A stretch of DNA of 64,000 nt from Nodularia sp. NIES-3585. Its GTDB lineage: Bacteria > Cyanobacteriota > Cyanobacteriia > Cyanobacteriales > Nostocaceae. The position numbers were made by a program, and so were the translations under genes. This document shows, in pieces, positions 41,889 through 47,682 of the stretch; position 1 is the first letter of the stretch; every line of letters starts with the position of its first letter. The DNA lies in contig NZ_BDUB01000001.1 in assembly GCF_002218065.1 (NCBI RefSeq), forward strand, positions 3,071,270-3,135,269. The letters are read 5' to 3'. The notes under the pieces are model-generated. The model searched no databases and had not been told where the DNA came from. It saw nothing but the letters and a program-made list of their open reading frames with translations.

Positions 41889-42017
41889 CTGCACGGTAAT
41901 TTGCTAAAAGTGGATTGGGTATGAACACATTTATATTTCCCAACCGGTAACAGCAGATGATCAAATCCAGCCATTGATGCAGAAGCCTTCAGATTTTTTC
42001 ACACAATTATTGATAAT

Positions 42018-43166
42018 ATGCAAATATATTTAGATTACAGTGCCACTACTCCCACTCGCCCAGAAGCGATCGCAGCTATGCAAACAGCCCTGAATCAACA
42101 ATGGGGCAATCCTTCTAGCTTACATGAGTGGGGACAACGCGCCGCCACAATGGTTGAACAAGCCAGAATCCAAGTTGCAGATTTAATTAATGCGGCTAAT
42201 CCAGAATCTATAGTTTTTACTGCTGGTGGTACAGAAGCTAATAATTTAGCCATTATGGGCATTGCCAGATTATACACTTTACCGCAACACATAATTATTT
42301 CCCAGGTGGAACATTCCGCCATTTCGGAACCAGCGCGGTTATTGGAAATGTGGGGTTGGGAAGTAACGCGTCTGGGTGTGGATAGCAAAGGGAGAGTAAA
42401 CCCTCTGGATTTAACAGCAGCGTTGCAAGATAACACTGTTTTAGTTTCGGTGATTTATGGACAAAGTGAAATCGGTACTATCCAACCAATTACCGAGTTA
42501 GGAAATATTACTCAACAGCATGGAACTTTATTTCACACAGATGCAGTCCAAGCTGCGGGACGTGTACCCATAGATGTGCAGAAATTGCCAGTAGATTTAC
42601 TCAGTCTTTCCAGTCATAAAATATATGGACCCCAAGGGGCTGGGGCGTTGTATGTGCGTCCGAATATCGAATTAGTGCCTTTGTTAGGTGGTGGTGGACA
42701 AGAAAGGGGATTGCGTTCTGGGACTCAAGCCGTACCTGCGATCGCAGGTTTTGGAATTGCCGCCGAATTAGCTATGGTAGAATTACGGAGTGAAATACCC
42801 CGATTAATTAAGTTGCGCGATCGCCTATTTGCTGAGTTAGCAGATATTCCTAGTTTAATTCCTACAGGCGATCGCAATCATCGTTTACCTCATCATGTAA
42901 GTTTCTGTCTAGAACACGCCGATGGTAAAAATCTTAGTGGTAAGGCTTTGGTTAGACAAATGAATCTGGCTGGTATTGGTATTAGTGCCGGTTCTGCCTG
43001 TCACAGTGGTAAACTTAGCCCTAGTCCTATACTCTTAGCAATGGGTTATCCGGAATCAGCTGCTTTGGGAGGGGTGCGCTTGACTTTGGGGCGTGATACT
43101 ACAGAGGCTGATGTTGATTGGGTGGCGATGGTGTTTAAGCAAGTTTTGCAGAGGCTGATCTGCTGA
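42018..43166 (+). CDS. Cysteine desulfurase (NifS/IscS-like)
   Basis: 382-residue PLP enzyme releasing sulfur from cysteine for Fe-S clusters and thio-cofactors. YLDYSATTPTRPEA at the N-terminus, FTAGGTEANNLAIMG (cofactor loop), SLSSHKIYGPQGAGALYV with the PLP Lys, and the flexible loop SAGSACHSGKLSPS with the catalytic Cys. No nif genes surround it, so it is a general-purpose or thiolation desulfurase; which one is unclear. ATG at 42018. The XPB helicase gene starts 81 nt downstream, with GCAGAGGCGCAGAGGCGCAG tandem repeats between (43185-43205). Confidence 0.92.
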   Translation: MQIYLDYSATTPTRPEAIAAMQTALNQQWGNPSSLHEWGQRAATMVEQARIQVADLINAANPESIVFTAGGTEANNLAIMGIARLYTLPQHIIISQVEHSAISEPARLLEMWGWEVTRLGVDSKGRVNPLDLTAALQDNTVLVSVIYGQSEIGTIQPITELGNITQQHGTLFHTDAVQAAGRVPIDVQKLPVDLLSLSSHKIYGPQGAGALYVRPNIELVPLLGGGGQERGLRSGTQAVPAIAGFGIAAELAMVELRSEIPRLIKLRDRLFAELADIPSLIPTGDRNHRLPHHVSFCLEHADGKNLSGKALVRQMNLAGIGISAGSACHSGKLSPSPILLAMGYPESAALGGVRLTLGRDTTEADVDWVAMVFKQVLQRLIC

Positions 43167-43247
43167 GGGAAATATGGATGAGTGTCACGCAGAGGCGCAG
43201 AGGCGCAGAGAGGAAGAGATGTTATTTTATTTCTGGAAAGTTCCTAA

Positions 43248-44816
43248 ATGGCTCGTACACCTACGTTAAAATTTGATCGCGGGACATTAATTTTACATCC
43301 ACCGCCACGGGGTAAGGGTTGGATGGATTATGCTACTTGGGATGATCGGGTGGAAAAGTTTCGCATTCCCGCCATGAGATATCGGGCTTTGGTGGAAGCG
43401 TTACAAGCTGAAGATGTTTATTTTGTGGATGAGGCTAAGGAATTTTATCCGGTGGATTTAATTCCGAGTATGGAAATGGAGCCTTATCCGCACCAAGTTG
43501 AGGCTTTAGCCGCTTGGAAGTTGGAGGGTAGGCAGGGGGTTGTGGTGTTACCTACGGCGGCGGGAAAGACTTATTTGGCACAAATGGCGATGCAATCTAC
43601 ACCCCGCACTACCTTAATTGTGGTTCCAACTTTGGATTTGATGCATCAGTGGTATGCTCATTTAGTAGCAGCGTTTCCTGATGCTGAGGTGGGTTTGTTG
43701 GGTGGTGGTTCACGCGATCGCACTGCAATATTAGTGGCGACTTATGATAGTGCGGCTATTCATGCGGAAACCTTGGGAAATAAGTATGCTTTGCTGGTGT
43801 TTGATGAATGTCATCATTTACCTACGGATTTTGGCAGAGTAATTGCAGAGTATGCGATCGCACCTTATCGTTTAGGATTGTCAGCAACACCAGAACGCAC
43901 TGATGGGAAACACGCTGATTTAAATATTTTGATTGGTCCGGAAGTTTATCGCAAACGGGCTGAGGATTTGGCGGGGAGTGCTTTAGCGAAGCATGAAATT
44001 GTGCAAATTAAGGTGAAGTTATCACAGCATGAGCGAGAAAGATACAATACATTAATTCAAACTCGCAATGATTTTTTGCGCCAATCGAAGATTTCTTTGG
44101 GAAGTATTCAAGGTTGGCAAATGTTTGTGAAAATGAGTGCGCGATCGCCTGCTGGACGTAGGGCTATGTTAGCACATCGGGAAGCGAAAAACATTGCTTT
44201 GGGTACTGATGGTAAGTTAAGAATTTTGGCTAATTTGTTGGCTGAACATTTCCCGGAAAGGATTCTCATTTTTACGGCTGATAATGCGACGGTTTATAGT
44301 ATTTCTGAAAAGTTATTAATTCCGGCGATTACTCATCAAACTCCTGTTAAGGAACGTCATGAAATTTTAACTAAGTTTCGGGAGGGGGAATACAATACTT
44401 TGGTGGCTTCTCATGTGTTGAATGAGGGGGTTGATGTTCCTGCTGCTTCTGTGGCGATTATTTTGTCGGGGACTGGTTCGACTAGGGAATATGTTCAGCG
44501 TTTGGGTCGGGTTTTGAGAAGGGGGAATGTGGCTAATAAGCGGGCGATTTTGTATGAGGTGGTGGCTGAGGATACTAGTGAGGAGGGGACTTCGGCGCGG
44601 CGTAGGGGGGTGGATATCGAACCGCCAAGTCGCCAAGGTCGCCAAGGGAAGAGGGGGAGTTTACAGGTTGTTTATGGGGGTGGGAAAGGTAGTACTCCGA
44701 AGGCTGCGGAACAGGTAGAGATTAAGTATTCAACGGATAAGAATAATGTTACCGACGGATTTACTGAGTCATCGCCAAAACGGAGAGGAAATTATTCCGA
44801 AGAGGTTGAAGATTGA
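43248..44816 (+). CDS. XPB-type superfamily 2 DNA helicase
   Basis: 522 residues. The N-terminal damage-recognition-like part (~1-80) is followed by the helicase core: Q/PYPHQ motif, Walker A LPTAAGKTYLA, DECHH box (VFDECHHLPT), motif III LSATPERTDG, a thumb-like helical insert (about 235-300), motif V SHVLNEGVDVPAAS and motif VI EYVQRLGRVLRR. This is the archaeal/bacterial XPB family, 3'-5' helicases that open DNA in repair. The last ~65 residues are low complexity, and residues 457-467 (EPPSRQGRQGK) are encoded by a dispersed repeat. The 3' end overlaps the Bax1-like gene by 71 nt. Confidence 0.92.
   Translation: MARTPTLKFDRGTLILHPPPRGKGWMDYATWDDRVEKFRIPAMRYRALVEALQAEDVYFVDEAKEFYPVDLIPSMEMEPYPHQVEALAAWKLEGRQGVVVLPTAAGKTYLAQMAMQSTPRTTLIVVPTLDLMHQWYAHLVAAFPDAEVGLLGGGSRDRTAILVATYDSAAIHAETLGNKYALLVFDECHHLPTDFGRVIAEYAIAPYRLGLSATPERTDGKHADLNILIGPEVYRKRAEDLAGSALAKHEIVQIKVKLSQHERERYNTLIQTRNDFLRQSKISLGSIQGWQMFVKMSARSPAGRRAMLAHREAKNIALGTDGKLRILANLLAEHFPERILIFTADNATVYSISEKLLIPAITHQTPVKERHEILTKFREGEYNTLVASHVLNEGVDVPAASVAIILSGTGSTREYVQRLGRVLRRGNVANKRAILYEVVAEDTSEEGTSARRRGVDIEPPSRQGRQGKRGSLQVVYGGGKGSTPKAAEQVEIKYSTDKNNVTDGFTESSPKRRGNYSEEVED
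44618..44646. repeat. Dispersed CGCCAAG repeat within the XPB coding sequence
   Basis: CGAACCGCCAAG followed by TCGCCAAGG and TCGCCAAGG corresponds to an intergenic repeat seen as AACGAACCGCCAAG plus TACGCCAAG units at 15080-15113 (complement). Here it is read in frame as part of the helicase tail. Confidence 0.65.
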
Positions 44817-45969
44817 TCAGAAGAGTATTGAGTTGGGGAATGAGTTGATTGGTTGTTTTGAGGCGGCGAAAGGGAAGTCTCAGGGGGTTTTGGAACGTCA
44901 ACTTTTGGATTTGGAGGGTGATGCTACTGATTATCGGGTGAAGCGGGGTTTGGCTTATATTCTCAAGAGTAGTTTCTGTACTTTTGAGGTGGTGAGTCCT
45001 CTGGAACCGCCTATGTTACGGGAACGAGTGTTTGCTTTGGCGGCGAAGTCGGTTCCTAGTGCGGAATCTACTCAGGTGACTTTAACTAAGATTGCTGATG
45101 AGTTGAGTCAGGAGTTGGAACGTGAGGTTTTGTTGGAACAGGTGCGCGATGGTTTATATGCTGATTTGGCGGAAAATAAGATTTTAACTAATTTTGATGC
45201 GCCGAGTCCGGTGGATTTATTAAATAGATATAATTTGTCTCAGGTACAGGGAATTTTTTATAAAGCCAGTAAGTTAATTTTAAATGCTCATCGTAATGTT
45301 CCTGGGGAATATAAGCTGTTGTTTCGTTATTTGAAGTTGTTTCAATTGATGGCTTATATTGAAGGAGATGCTGACCACGGGTTTACAATTACCGTTGATG
45401 GTCCGACGAGTTTATTTAATCCTAGTACGAGATATGGGTTAGCGATCGCTAAATTAATTCCGGCTTTACTTCATGTCACCAAATGGAGTCTTTCGGCGAC
45501 TTTACAAACTCGTGATCCTTATACCAAAGCATGGAACACGGGAAGATTTACACTCAATTCTGAATGTGGCTTAGTGTCTCACTATTCCAAGGGTAAGCCT
45601 TACGATAGTATGCTAGAGTCATCCTTTGCCGATAAATGGGATGCACTCAAAACAGACTGGGTATTAGAGCGAGAAGTGGATTTATTACCAGTTCCTGGTA
45701 GTGTGATGATTCCCGATTTTCGGTTAGTCCATCCTGATGGTCGTGACTTCTTATTAGAAATAGTTGGTTATTGGCGACCAGAATATTTACAAAAGAAATT
45801 TTATCAAGTGCGGAGTTCTGGATGTGACAATTTAATTTTAGCAATTTCCGAAAGATTGAATTTAGAAAAAGCCGGAGTAAAATTAGATAATGTCCCCGCA
45901 AAAATTGTGTGGTTCAAAGATAAGTTATTACCAAAAGCAGTATTAGCAGTAATCGAGGATGACGTATGA
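44746..45969 (+). CDS. Bax1-like nuclease (DUF790), XPB partner
   Basis: 407 residues. The N-terminal two thirds are helical and fit the DUF790/Bax1 pattern (LLDLEGDATDYRVKRGLAYI, VLLEQVRDGLYADLAENKIL, LLNRYNLSQVQGIFYKA). The C-terminal nuclease part carries YDSMLESSFADKW, then IPDFRLVHPDGRDFLLEIVGYW and a following Lys region, a PD-(D/E)xK-like arrangement. In archaea Bax1 binds XPB and cuts DNA near the unwound bubble, so this pair likely forms a repair-type helicase-nuclease. The ATG at 44746 lies inside the helicase gene. The stop overlaps the antitoxin start (ATGA). Confidence 0.9.
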   Translation: MLPTDLLSHRQNGEEIIPKRLKIDQKSIELGNELIGCFEAAKGKSQGVLERQLLDLEGDATDYRVKRGLAYILKSSFCTFEVVSPLEPPMLRERVFALAAKSVPSAESTQVTLTKIADELSQELEREVLLEQVRDGLYADLAENKILTNFDAPSPVDLLNRYNLSQVQGIFYKASKLILNAHRNVPGEYKLLFRYLKLFQLMAYIEGDADHGFTITVDGPTSLFNPSTRYGLAIAKLIPALLHVTKWSLSATLQTRDPYTKAWNTGRFTLNSECGLVSHYSKGKPYDSMLESSFADKWDALKTDWVLEREVDLLPVPGSVMIPDFRLVHPDGRDFLLEIVGYWRPEYLQKKFYQVRSSGCDNLILAISERLNLEKAGVKLDNVPAKIVWFKDKLLPKAVLAVIEDDV

Positions 45970-46208
45970 AAAGTATAGAAACAATAGCCACAGTCACAAA
46001 AGACGGTAAAATTACAGTACAATTACCGCCTGATATCCCAGCAGGTGAGCATCATGTAGTGATAGTAATTGAAGAAAAATATACAGATGAGAAAGTGGAG
46101 AGTCAGGAAAAGCGTCCTCCTTTAAACTTTCCCGTGCATAATTGTGGTCTTGGTTCTGAAAATCTTTCTTTAAGACGTGAGGATATGTATGGTGATTGGG
46201 GAAGGTAA
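45966..46208 (+). CDS. VapB-like antitoxin, coupled to Bax1 gene
   Basis: 80 residues. The N-terminal beta-rich part (IETIATVTKDGKITVQLPPDIPAGEHHVVIVIEE) is followed by a tail ending SENLSLRREDMYGDWGR, which is typical of cyanobacterial antitoxins paired with PIN toxins. The ATG overlaps the Bax1 stop by 4 nt and the gene overlaps the toxin start by 20 nt, so all are probably translated from one message. The N-terminal part may bind DNA; the C-terminal part should mask the toxin. Confidence 0.85.
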   Translation: MKSIETIATVTKDGKITVQLPPDIPAGEHHVVIVIEEKYTDEKVESQEKRPPLNFPVHNCGLGSENLSLRREDMYGDWGR

Positions 46209-46641
46209 TCCTGTTTTTTTAGATACAAATATCCTAGTATATGCTAGTCAAATTCAGTCTCCATTTCACATAGCCGCGATATCAGCTATGCAAAGTTTAT
46301 ATGATGTGGGTGTGGACTTGTGGATTAGCCGACAAATATTGCGGGAATATTTAGCTACTCTTACCCGTACTCAACAATTTACCAACCCATTACCCATTGC
46401 AACAGTAATTGAGGATGTTGTCTATTTTCAAACCCGTTTTCGGGTAGCTGAAGATAGTTCTCTGGTAACAGATAGGTTACTAAATCTCATTGAGCAAATT
46501 CCTAGCGGTGGTAAGCAAGTTCATGATGCCAATATTGTCGCCACCATGCTAGCTTACAATATCCCTCAATTACTCACCCACAACACAAGTGATTTTGCCA
46601 GATTTGCTAACTTAATTACTGTCTTGCCTTTGCAGGAGTAA
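46189..46641 (+). CDS. VapC-type PIN-domain toxin
   Basis: 150 residues with all expected acids: Asp12 (VFLDTNILVYA), Glu53 (QILREYLATL), Asp113 (KQVHDANIVATM) and Asp135 (HNTSDFARF). Predicted Mg-dependent RNase restrained by the upstream antitoxin. The ATG at 46189 has a GTGAGG site about 7 nt upstream, so it is preferred over a GTG at 46177. Unlike the PIN protein at 10706, the second acid is intact. It ends a four-gene overlapping run starting with the XPB helicase. Confidence 0.88.
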   Translation: MVIGEGNPVFLDTNILVYASQIQSPFHIAAISAMQSLYDVGVDLWISRQILREYLATLTRTQQFTNPLPIATVIEDVVYFQTRFRVAEDSSLVTDRLLNLIEQIPSGGKQVHDANIVATMLAYNIPQLLTHNTSDFARFANLITVLPLQE

Positions 46642-46645
46642 CTTT

Positions 46646-47206
46646 TTAAACTTTTATCATATTGAGTATATCATCTCGTGTTTCTTCAGGCAATTTACCA
46701 TTTGTATAAACAACGAACTTGGCTAAATCATGATTTGAATGATGCTTCACAAAATGTTCGTTAAAATCAACGCCATTACTCACAATTCCACCATTACGTT
46801 CATTAAGAATTTGGATAGACTCTTCTAAATTTGGAGAAGGAAGAATCAACACGACATTTTCATAAGGCGCTAAAACTCTTTGTACTCGTTGGAAAAGTTC
46901 ATTGTCTTCAAAAACAGAATGTCCTGCACCAAAATCAATCACACAATTTTTATGTTCAGAAAGTAATCTTGCCACTGCGTAGGCTTCAAAGGGTTTCCAA
47001 TAACGATAAATCCCTTCAAATCCTGCTTCTTCTCTTATTTGCTGTGCGAGTTCTGCATCATAATTTATTTCCTGATAATAATCCAATCGTACATCGTCCA
47101 TAGAACACTGTGAAATTCCTAAGTTTTGAGCGAGGAGTTTTCCCAGAGTGCTTTTACCTGTACCAACTGGGCCAATGAGAATAATATCTGAAATCAGATG
47201 GCTCAT
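46646..47206 (-). CDS. P-loop kinase of the shikimate kinase-like family
   Basis: 186 residues. Walker A GPVGTGKSTLGKLLA near the N-terminus, then SMDDVRLDYYQEI, where shikimate kinases have their metal/substrate Asp. CVIDFGAGHSVFEDNELF resembles the shikimate kinase VIALGGG region but lacks GGG, so the substrate is probably different. The C-terminus is helical. Converges with the PIN toxin gene with only 4 nt between. Small-molecule kinase or nucleotide-binding protein; exact role unknown. Confidence 0.75.
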   Translation of the reverse strand: MSHLISDIILIGPVGTGKSTLGKLLAQNLGISQCSMDDVRLDYYQEINYDAELAQQIREEAGFEGIYRYWKPFEAYAVARLLSEHKNCVIDFGAGHSVFEDNELFQRVQRVLAPYENVVLILPSPNLEESIQILNERNGGIVSNGVDFNEHFVKHHSNHDLAKFVVYTNGKLPEETRDDILNMIKV

Positions 47207-47253
47207 TTTAAATTGAAATAGCAGCTAAACAAAAAAGTTAAAGGCTTAATTAC

Positions 47254-47682
47254 TTACAAGTCGAACTGTCCACTCATTCTCTGTTCCAACAACTCCAACA
47301 ACCCATTTACATCCTTCCCCACTTCCTCAAAACAAACCGGCGGAGGAGGTTCAGGTGCAAACTGAATCAACTTCAGTTCACCCTTACCAATCCCAATCAT
47401 CACCACCTCCATTTCAGGTTTATGATGATCAACAATACCCAAAATTTCCTGAAGCCGATTATCAACCTTCTGATTTAAATTTTCTATCGCCGCTTGGGGA
47501 CAATAAATAAAATGCGGAGTTGGCTGTAAATCAATCCCAACAGTACCCTGACTATTGCCATTTTCCAACCACAACCCCCAAAAAAGCGCCGCCAAATCGC
47601 GCTGATTTTCCTTGACAAACCTATCCAACTGGCCGCGCCACTTGCTATTTCCTGTCTCCGGTTGACTACTTCCAAACATCAT
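47254..47682 (-). CDS. Conserved cyanobacterial hypothetical protein
   Basis: 142 residues, soluble. KWRGQLDRFVKENQRDLAAL is an amphipathic helix; TVGIDLQPTPHFIYCPQAAIENLN and EVVMIGIGKGELKLIQF suggest an alpha/beta core; a Pro-rich PEPPPPVCFEEVGKDV precedes the C-terminal helix. I recall close relatives only in cyanobacteria and have no firm function. ATG at 47682, preceded by AATTCGT-type heptamer repeats (47690-47745), which place its promoter uncertainly. Confidence 0.7.
   Translation of the reverse strand: MMFGSSQPETGNSKWRGQLDRFVKENQRDLAALFWGLWLENGNSQGTVGIDLQPTPHFIYCPQAAIENLNQKVDNRLQEILGIVDHHKPEMEVVMIGIGKGELKLIQFAPEPPPPVCFEEVGKDVNGLLELLEQRMSGQFDL

Follow-up and report, generated by a model that had tools for sequence, protein, structure and literature searches.

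Why does a toxin-antitoxin (TA) pair lie in the same run of overlapping genes as a DNA repair helicase and nuclease, and does it do anything for them? The question is raised by a locus of the cyanobacterium Nodularia sp. NIES-3585, within a stretch of 64,000 nucleotides (assembly GCF_002218065.1, contig NZ_BDUB01000001.1, positions 3,071,270 to 3,135,269 of the forward strand) that is called the window here. Four genes follow one another on the same strand:

43248..44816, + strand: XPB-type superfamily 2 (SF2) helicase, 522 amino acids (Pfam domains, archaeal XPB structures)
44746..45969, + strand: Bax1 nuclease (DUF790), 407 amino acids (DUF790 profile, Bax1 structure 6p66)
45966..46208, + strand: antitoxin, 80 amino acids, C-terminal type A (RelN-family N-terminal similarity, junction sequence, ratio of nonsynonymous to synonymous substitution rates, dN/dS)
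46177..46641, + strand: PIN-domain (VapC-type) toxin (Pfam PIN, TIGR00028, acidic residues, structure match)

The reading that we consider probable is that the TA pair is a passenger which has long had its home in the repair operon; it would be expressed together with that operon and need not work with it. What is observed comprises gene positions and overlaps, family matches, the home site, decay, exchange of antitoxin tail and toxin, stacking of antitoxins, and purifying selection.

The home site behind Bax1

A profile search for the antitoxin in 217 Nostocaceae genomes (E<=1e-12; at most 25 candidates scored per genome, remnants below the threshold such as that of genome G001 not counted) found 81 carriers. 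In 58 of these 81 an antitoxin lies directly behind Bax1, that is, on the same strand and within 1500 nucleotides (nt), as do 78 of all 107 antitoxin matches; the gap to the first copy is 10-158 nt between model matches. Named genomes were scanned as well, and of the 80 best loci (out of 292 relatives, ranked by similarity to the window toxin, which favours loci behind Bax1) 33 have the same position, in Nostoc, Anabaena, Mojavia, Komarekiella, Hassallia, Scytonema, Brasilonema, Rhizonema and other genera. Beyond Nostocaceae few genomes have the subfamily: of 388 genomes of the class, 12 match at E<=1e-30 (at most 9 candidates scored per genome), and 4 of the 12 are Nostocaceae.

Seen from the side of the repair genes, the pair is often missing. 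Among 150 relatives, Bax1 is found in 144 and XPB (E<=1e-80) likewise in 144, the two sets of genomes not being identical. Both are core genes and not always neighbours: XPB lies inside the fetched flank of Bax1 (about 3.5 kb upstream at most, one longer stretch excepted) at 76 of 89 loci of the own family and at 16 of 55 others. Behind Bax1, the TA subfamily or its remnant is present at 17 of these 144 loci (143 fetched relatives and the window), all of them in the own family, with 9 intact pairs and 8 that are decayed or truncated. The remaining 127 have no pair, with absence unsure in the 4 where the contig ends 265 nt or less from Bax1; in G047, one of the 127, a toxin fragment lies about 2.5 kb downstream of Bax1. 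No conserved partner is seen in pairless genomes among the near same-strand open reading frames (ORFs) that a simple ORF picker lists downstream of Bax1. A second, partial Bax1 copy (residues 308-404) was seen in G033, about 6 kb behind the intact one (L101:10451-10741).

The preliminary description of this DNA had reasoned that the linkage would be a chance insertion if XPB-Bax1 in relatives is usually without the pair and the pair is found at unrelated loci. The first half of this is what the 127 of 144 loci show; the second is not, as the pair is not mainly at unrelated loci. The linkage is more than a chance insertion and less than a fixed four-gene system, because most Bax1 loci are pairless and yet most carriers have their antitoxin behind Bax1. 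TA pairs move easily, and G002, of the same genus, has no pair, both of which would suit an insertion confined to the present genome. Such an insertion is hardly credible, being contradicted by the same site in 58 of 81 carriers and by a remnant at the same junction in G001. This remnant consists of 27-28 antitoxin codons, after which one internal deletion took most of the antitoxin and the whole toxin. The pair is intact in G003 and G004. The state of G002 suggests a clean loss, since its Bax1 ends in the same EEDV tail as in G001 and G003.

Could the pair instead protect the operon? In Synechocystis PCC 6803, TA genes located in the hox hydrogenase operon have been proposed to stabilise that operon (PMC4963859), and by analogy the present pair would punish loss of the XPB-Bax1 region. 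What the two cases share is a TA pair within a cyanobacterial operon whose housekeeping genes are unrelated to it, and the window locus has the same operon-like layout; the differences are that the operon is another one and that the present site is common to a family and shows turnover. Against protection stands the fact that XPB and Bax1 each persist in 144 of 150 genomes, most of them with no pair. In addition, G008 and G063 keep XPB and Bax1 with all three parts at separate places, and the G063 toxin contains a stop codon. In both genomes a short Bax1 tail sits directly upstream of the pair (L077 and L216 in G008; L131 and L215 in G063), so these pairs derive from the linked state, and either left the Bax1 site or were left by it. 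Stabilisation of the operon is accordingly quite improbable.

Turnover of the pair

Antitoxins of this subfamily have one of two C-terminal tails, A or B, each paired with its own toxin type. Between types, 23 chosen antitoxins have a median identity of 0.77 in the N-terminal part and 0.40 in the tail, and A and B copies within a single genome give 0.77-0.90 and 0.37-0.43, respectively. As the N-terminal parts are alike and the tails divergent, tail and toxin are exchanged jointly and the front part stays local. The swapping is independent of Bax1, which lends no direct support to a toxin tied to the state of the helicase-nuclease, as the preliminary description had considered it. Replacement is also visible at single loci: in G015 a new pair stands behind a decayed one, and the G029 toxin looks replaced, with a third-position identity of 53% against 73% for XPB.

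Tandem antitoxins (2-3 copies, decayed ones included, some with stop codons) occur in 19 of 58 linked genomes. In the stacks, orphan antitoxins, each followed by a cut toxin, precede one full pair. The earlier toxins are cut at the same junction in L229, L234, L237, L239, L243, L244 (4119-5459), L260, L261, L263 and L266; the spacer is 94-101 nt in 9 of these 10 stacked loci and 170 nt in L263, and L229 has an extra small deletion. L242, L255 and L257 are doubled in another manner. The dN/dS of orphan antitoxins is 0.25 and 0.37 against 0.15 and 0.19 for functional ones (the pairs compared are not independent); constraint on the orphans is weaker. The home site, the tail swapping and the antitoxin stacks set this subfamily apart from type II VapBC pairs as generally known. 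In the window itself, comparison with five relatives gives a dN/dS of 0.09-0.26 for the antitoxin and 0.14-0.26 for the toxin, and the pair is under purifying selection.

The four genes and their junctions

The XPB protein contains the damage-recognition domain and both helicase lobes (XPB_DRD at 1.3e-25, ResIII and Helicase_C, all above Pfam cut-offs), and its nearest solved chains are archaeal XPB, best 6p4f at 1.5e-101. Bax1 matches DUF790 over its full length (1.4e-155, profile 1-387) as well as structure 6p66 (8e-31), with the LExxF, IPDF and EIxGxW nuclease motif stretches aligned. The assignment to a helicase-nuclease pair in the preliminary description thus agrees with Pfam and solved structures. 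Compared with the archaeal XPB-Bax1 helicase-nuclease (PMC7293015; 6p66, 6p4f), both window proteins are homologous over most of their length. They differ in being cyanobacterial, in being known here from sequence, and in staying below the NCBIfam equivalog cut-offs: XPB has 191.6 bits for NF045503 (cut-off 610), and Bax1 has 165.8 and 141.3 bits for NF053694 and NF053695 (cut-off 500 each), two models whose names refer to Archaeoglobus- and Sulfolobus-type proteins. The main text of PMC7293015 never uses the word toxin. In PADLOC, no listed anti-phage system is present with all its parts; Bax1, antitoxin and toxin have no match at E<=0.01, and XPB has partial helicase-domain matches alone, best to PbeA. 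It is worth noting that XPB is partially similar both to PbeA (178 bits) and to TIGR04095 (113 bits), which are helicases of phosphorothioation-based systems (for PbeA see PMC6459918).

The other two genes have the layout of a type II VapBC pair, a small antitoxin gene that adjoins and overlaps the toxin from upstream (45966-46208 against 46189 or 46177-46641). The toxin matches Pfam PIN (1.2e-7, 32.8 bits, cut-off 23.6) and the NCBIfam VapC family TIGR00028 (1.1e-13, 51.6 bits); the latter score is under the curated cut-off of 73.6, and the toxin is therefore named VapC-type and not a member of that subfamily. Its four acidic residues (D16, E57, D117 and D139 in GTG numbering) are invariant in 10 chosen rows, as the preliminary description had noticed for the window toxin. 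A fold search with the predicted model (mean predicted local distance difference test score, pLDDT, 76.7) found VapC structures, best 7vwo (1.8e-5, TM score 0.72), followed by VapBC structures. Together this identifies an intact VapC-type PIN toxin, with VapC fold and catalytic acids. For the antitoxin no Pfam family is above cut-off, and N-terminal similarity to the RelN family (NF050107) is found for 11 of 16 antitoxin rows at E<=0.01, the window antitoxin having 18.3 bits and staying below the cut-off of 70. It has no match to Protein Data Bank (PDB) profiles and its predicted model is poor (pLDDT 57), too much so for a fold search. On these matches its family assignment stays loose, and a DNA-binding domain in it would be putative.

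Consecutive frames overlap by 71 nt (XPB/Bax1), 4 nt (Bax1/antitoxin) and 20 nt (antitoxin/toxin), or 32 nt for the last if the toxin starts at GTG 46177 (154 amino acids). The likely start is ATG 46189 (150 amino acids), with GAGG six bases upstream, GTG being the alternative. These overlaps are as first described, and the word "fused" used with them does not hold in a strict sense, as there are four separate frames in the ORF coordinates. Two of these overlaps are not unusual for the genes concerned: that of 71 nt recurs at 46 of 89 own-family loci and 1 of 55 others, and that of antitoxin and toxin is also present at pairs located away from Bax1. The 4-nt junction, where the Bax1 stop and the antitoxin start share ATGA, is a local feature, found among 32 printed junctions in the window, G003, G004, G001 (remnant) and G029; G067, also a remnant, has TTGA.

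History of the linkage

How old is the home site? Antitoxin and Bax1 distances correlate at 14 linked loci (r 0.54, p 0.0004) and less at 10 unlinked ones (r 0.34, p 0.08); for the 10 linked loci of type A, r is 0.28 (p 0.05). In third-position identity to G010 the pair resembles XPB and Bax1, whereas its identity to G055 is somewhat higher than theirs.

Several results weigh against an old passenger without a role of its own. Mapped onto a Bax1 tree of 94 rows, the linked state requires 14 changes, against a mean of 15.7 when shuffled, and 55 of 500 shuffles are as low. When the two own-genus copies are dropped, the type A correlation falls to r 0.01 (8 loci left). Synonymous divergence from G055 is 0.48 and 0.78 for the pair, half or less of the 1.42 and 1.61 for XPB and Bax1, as if the pair had moved between lineages later. 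Single inheritance of the linkage is thus not clean. Moreover, XPB is in the fetched flank at all 17 linked loci, compared with 59 of the 72 remaining loci of the own family (Fisher p 0.066; the genomes are related), and orphan antitoxins mostly retain open frames and may still do something. The subfamily also occurs upstream of XPB and in dnd and sbcD contexts (see below), which is not needed for an indifferent passenger.

An old linkage with many losses and exchange in place fits best; repeated arrival or transfer at the same site may be the alternative history. An origin from a plasmid or phage was considered and rejected: the antitoxin has no plasmid match and the toxin no phage match (phages were searched with the toxin alone), and plasmid matches of the toxin are only 9, at 27-34% identity.

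Other genomic contexts of the subfamily

Linkage to XPB is not restricted to the site behind Bax1. In L245 the pair lies 19 nt upstream of XPB, in L251 one gene separates the two, and in G109 the distance is about 1.9 kb, again upstream. Of the best 80 loci in the named-genome scan 47 are not directly behind Bax1, and for these 20 upstream genes were scanned. Five belong to repair or restriction: SbcD (L246), DndC (L276, L287) and the Dnd-associated restriction helicase TIGR04095 (L277, with 664 bits against 600, and L280, 92% identical to L277 and covered by the Pfam scan only). The other 15 are unrelated or without assignment (alpha-mannosidase, BipA, phytochelatin synthase, histidine kinase, Mur ligase and others); they include an Uma2 protein in L275 which, despite its Pfam label of putative restriction endonuclease, was not counted as restriction. 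In L276 and L287 the pair is inserted between dndC and dndD, with DndD after the pair, and in L325 it lies directly before a dndD-like gene (judged from its first residues only). At all three, the end of the toxin gene and the start of dndD share 4 nt (L323 and L327 are the same loci as L276 and L287). By sites, repair or restriction accounts for 4 of 18, with p 0.002-0.011 at an assumed background of 3-5%; this is a post hoc hand count and hence no test. As related loci are not independent, these placements are a lead that may keep a link with repair or defence open. As a control, 12 loci of more distant PIN proteins had no repair neighbour, as judged by eye in 1.5 kb flanks.

The contexts bear on the idea of a guard, in which the toxin would be restrained as long as XPB-Bax1 is intact and set free once the repair machine is lost, blocked or overloaded, for example by ultraviolet light or phage, leading to dormancy or abortive infection. 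A family-wide home site (58 of 81 carriers), a second linkage on the other side of XPB (L245), and placements in dnd (L276, L287, L325), behind the TIGR04095 helicase (L277) and behind SbcD (L246) speak for a guard. The pair is missing from 127 of 144 Bax1 loci, however, it is decayed beside a retained Bax1 in 8 of 17, and 15 of the 20 scanned upstream genes are not repair or restriction by family match. We regard a guard as unlikely. The earlier suggestion of a toxin that responds to damage or engagement of the helicase-nuclease likewise finds no direct support, given those 8 decayed pairs next to an intact Bax1. A still broader idea, somewhat less likely again, is that this PIN TA subfamily has been recruited repeatedly into DNA-processing operons (XPB-Bax1 on both sides, dndC/dndD, Dnd restriction helicase, SbcD) to act as a sentinel that would release its toxin upon sabotage or engagement of the machine; stacked antitoxins would then be leftovers of successive toxin replacements.

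Proposed mechanism

For the probable reading, a passenger housed in the operon, we infer co-transcription, translational coupling, binding, RNase action and addiction. The pair would be a self-contained type II system, made up of a PIN ribonuclease toxin and an antitoxin whose N-terminal part is RelN-like and whose C-terminal tail binds the toxin. Housed directly behind the conserved XPB-Bax1 genes in Nostocaceae, it would be transcribed with that operon. Translation may be coupled: a ribosome ending Bax1 at ATGA would restart on the antitoxin, and next on the toxin within the last antitoxin codons. The antitoxin would bind the toxin, and on loss of the antitoxin the PIN enzyme would cleave RNA and arrest growth. 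Addiction, together with riding on a rarely lost gene, could explain persistence of the pair in spite of frequent decay, and its renewal in place would come from recombination in which antitoxin tail and toxin are exchanged as one.

That no XPB-Bax1-TA system has been described, as first stated, holds within the literature searched: no paper was found that joins XPB, Bax1 and toxin-antitoxin, in a search outside which most subscription-journal papers fall, and among papers on DUF790, cyanobacterial XPB helicase, and TA with repair or defence, no title or start of an abstract describes the arrangement.

Neighbouring genes and elements

One further feature lies at the end of the toxin gene:

46622..46637, + strand: terminator-like hairpin (pattern match only)

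Such hairpin patterns number 6 in 43100-46900, against a shuffle mean of 3.2, and a search for RNA elements gave no Rfam match in 42000-47300. A cysteine desulfurase gene upstream (42018-43166) was considered as a member of the unit and rejected: close matches are found in the fetched flanks of 4 of 5 own-genus loci, in G067 and partly in G020, with only two matches at 25-28% identity elsewhere (fetched flanks extend about 2 kb past XPB). Downstream, a P-loop kinase-like gene on the minus strand (46646-47206) has no match at E<=1e-10 in the 143 other fetched Bax1 loci. It separates the toxin from a 142-amino-acid gene which in G001, G003 and G004 comes immediately after the pair or what is left of it.

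Implications

Throughout a bacterial family, this TA pair has a stable position behind core repair genes, where decay, toxin exchange and antitoxin stacking are all visible. It makes a long-standing question testable, namely whether chromosomal TA pairs are passengers or serve the operon that hosts them, and the parallel placements in dnd and sbcD contexts may be used as natural replicates.

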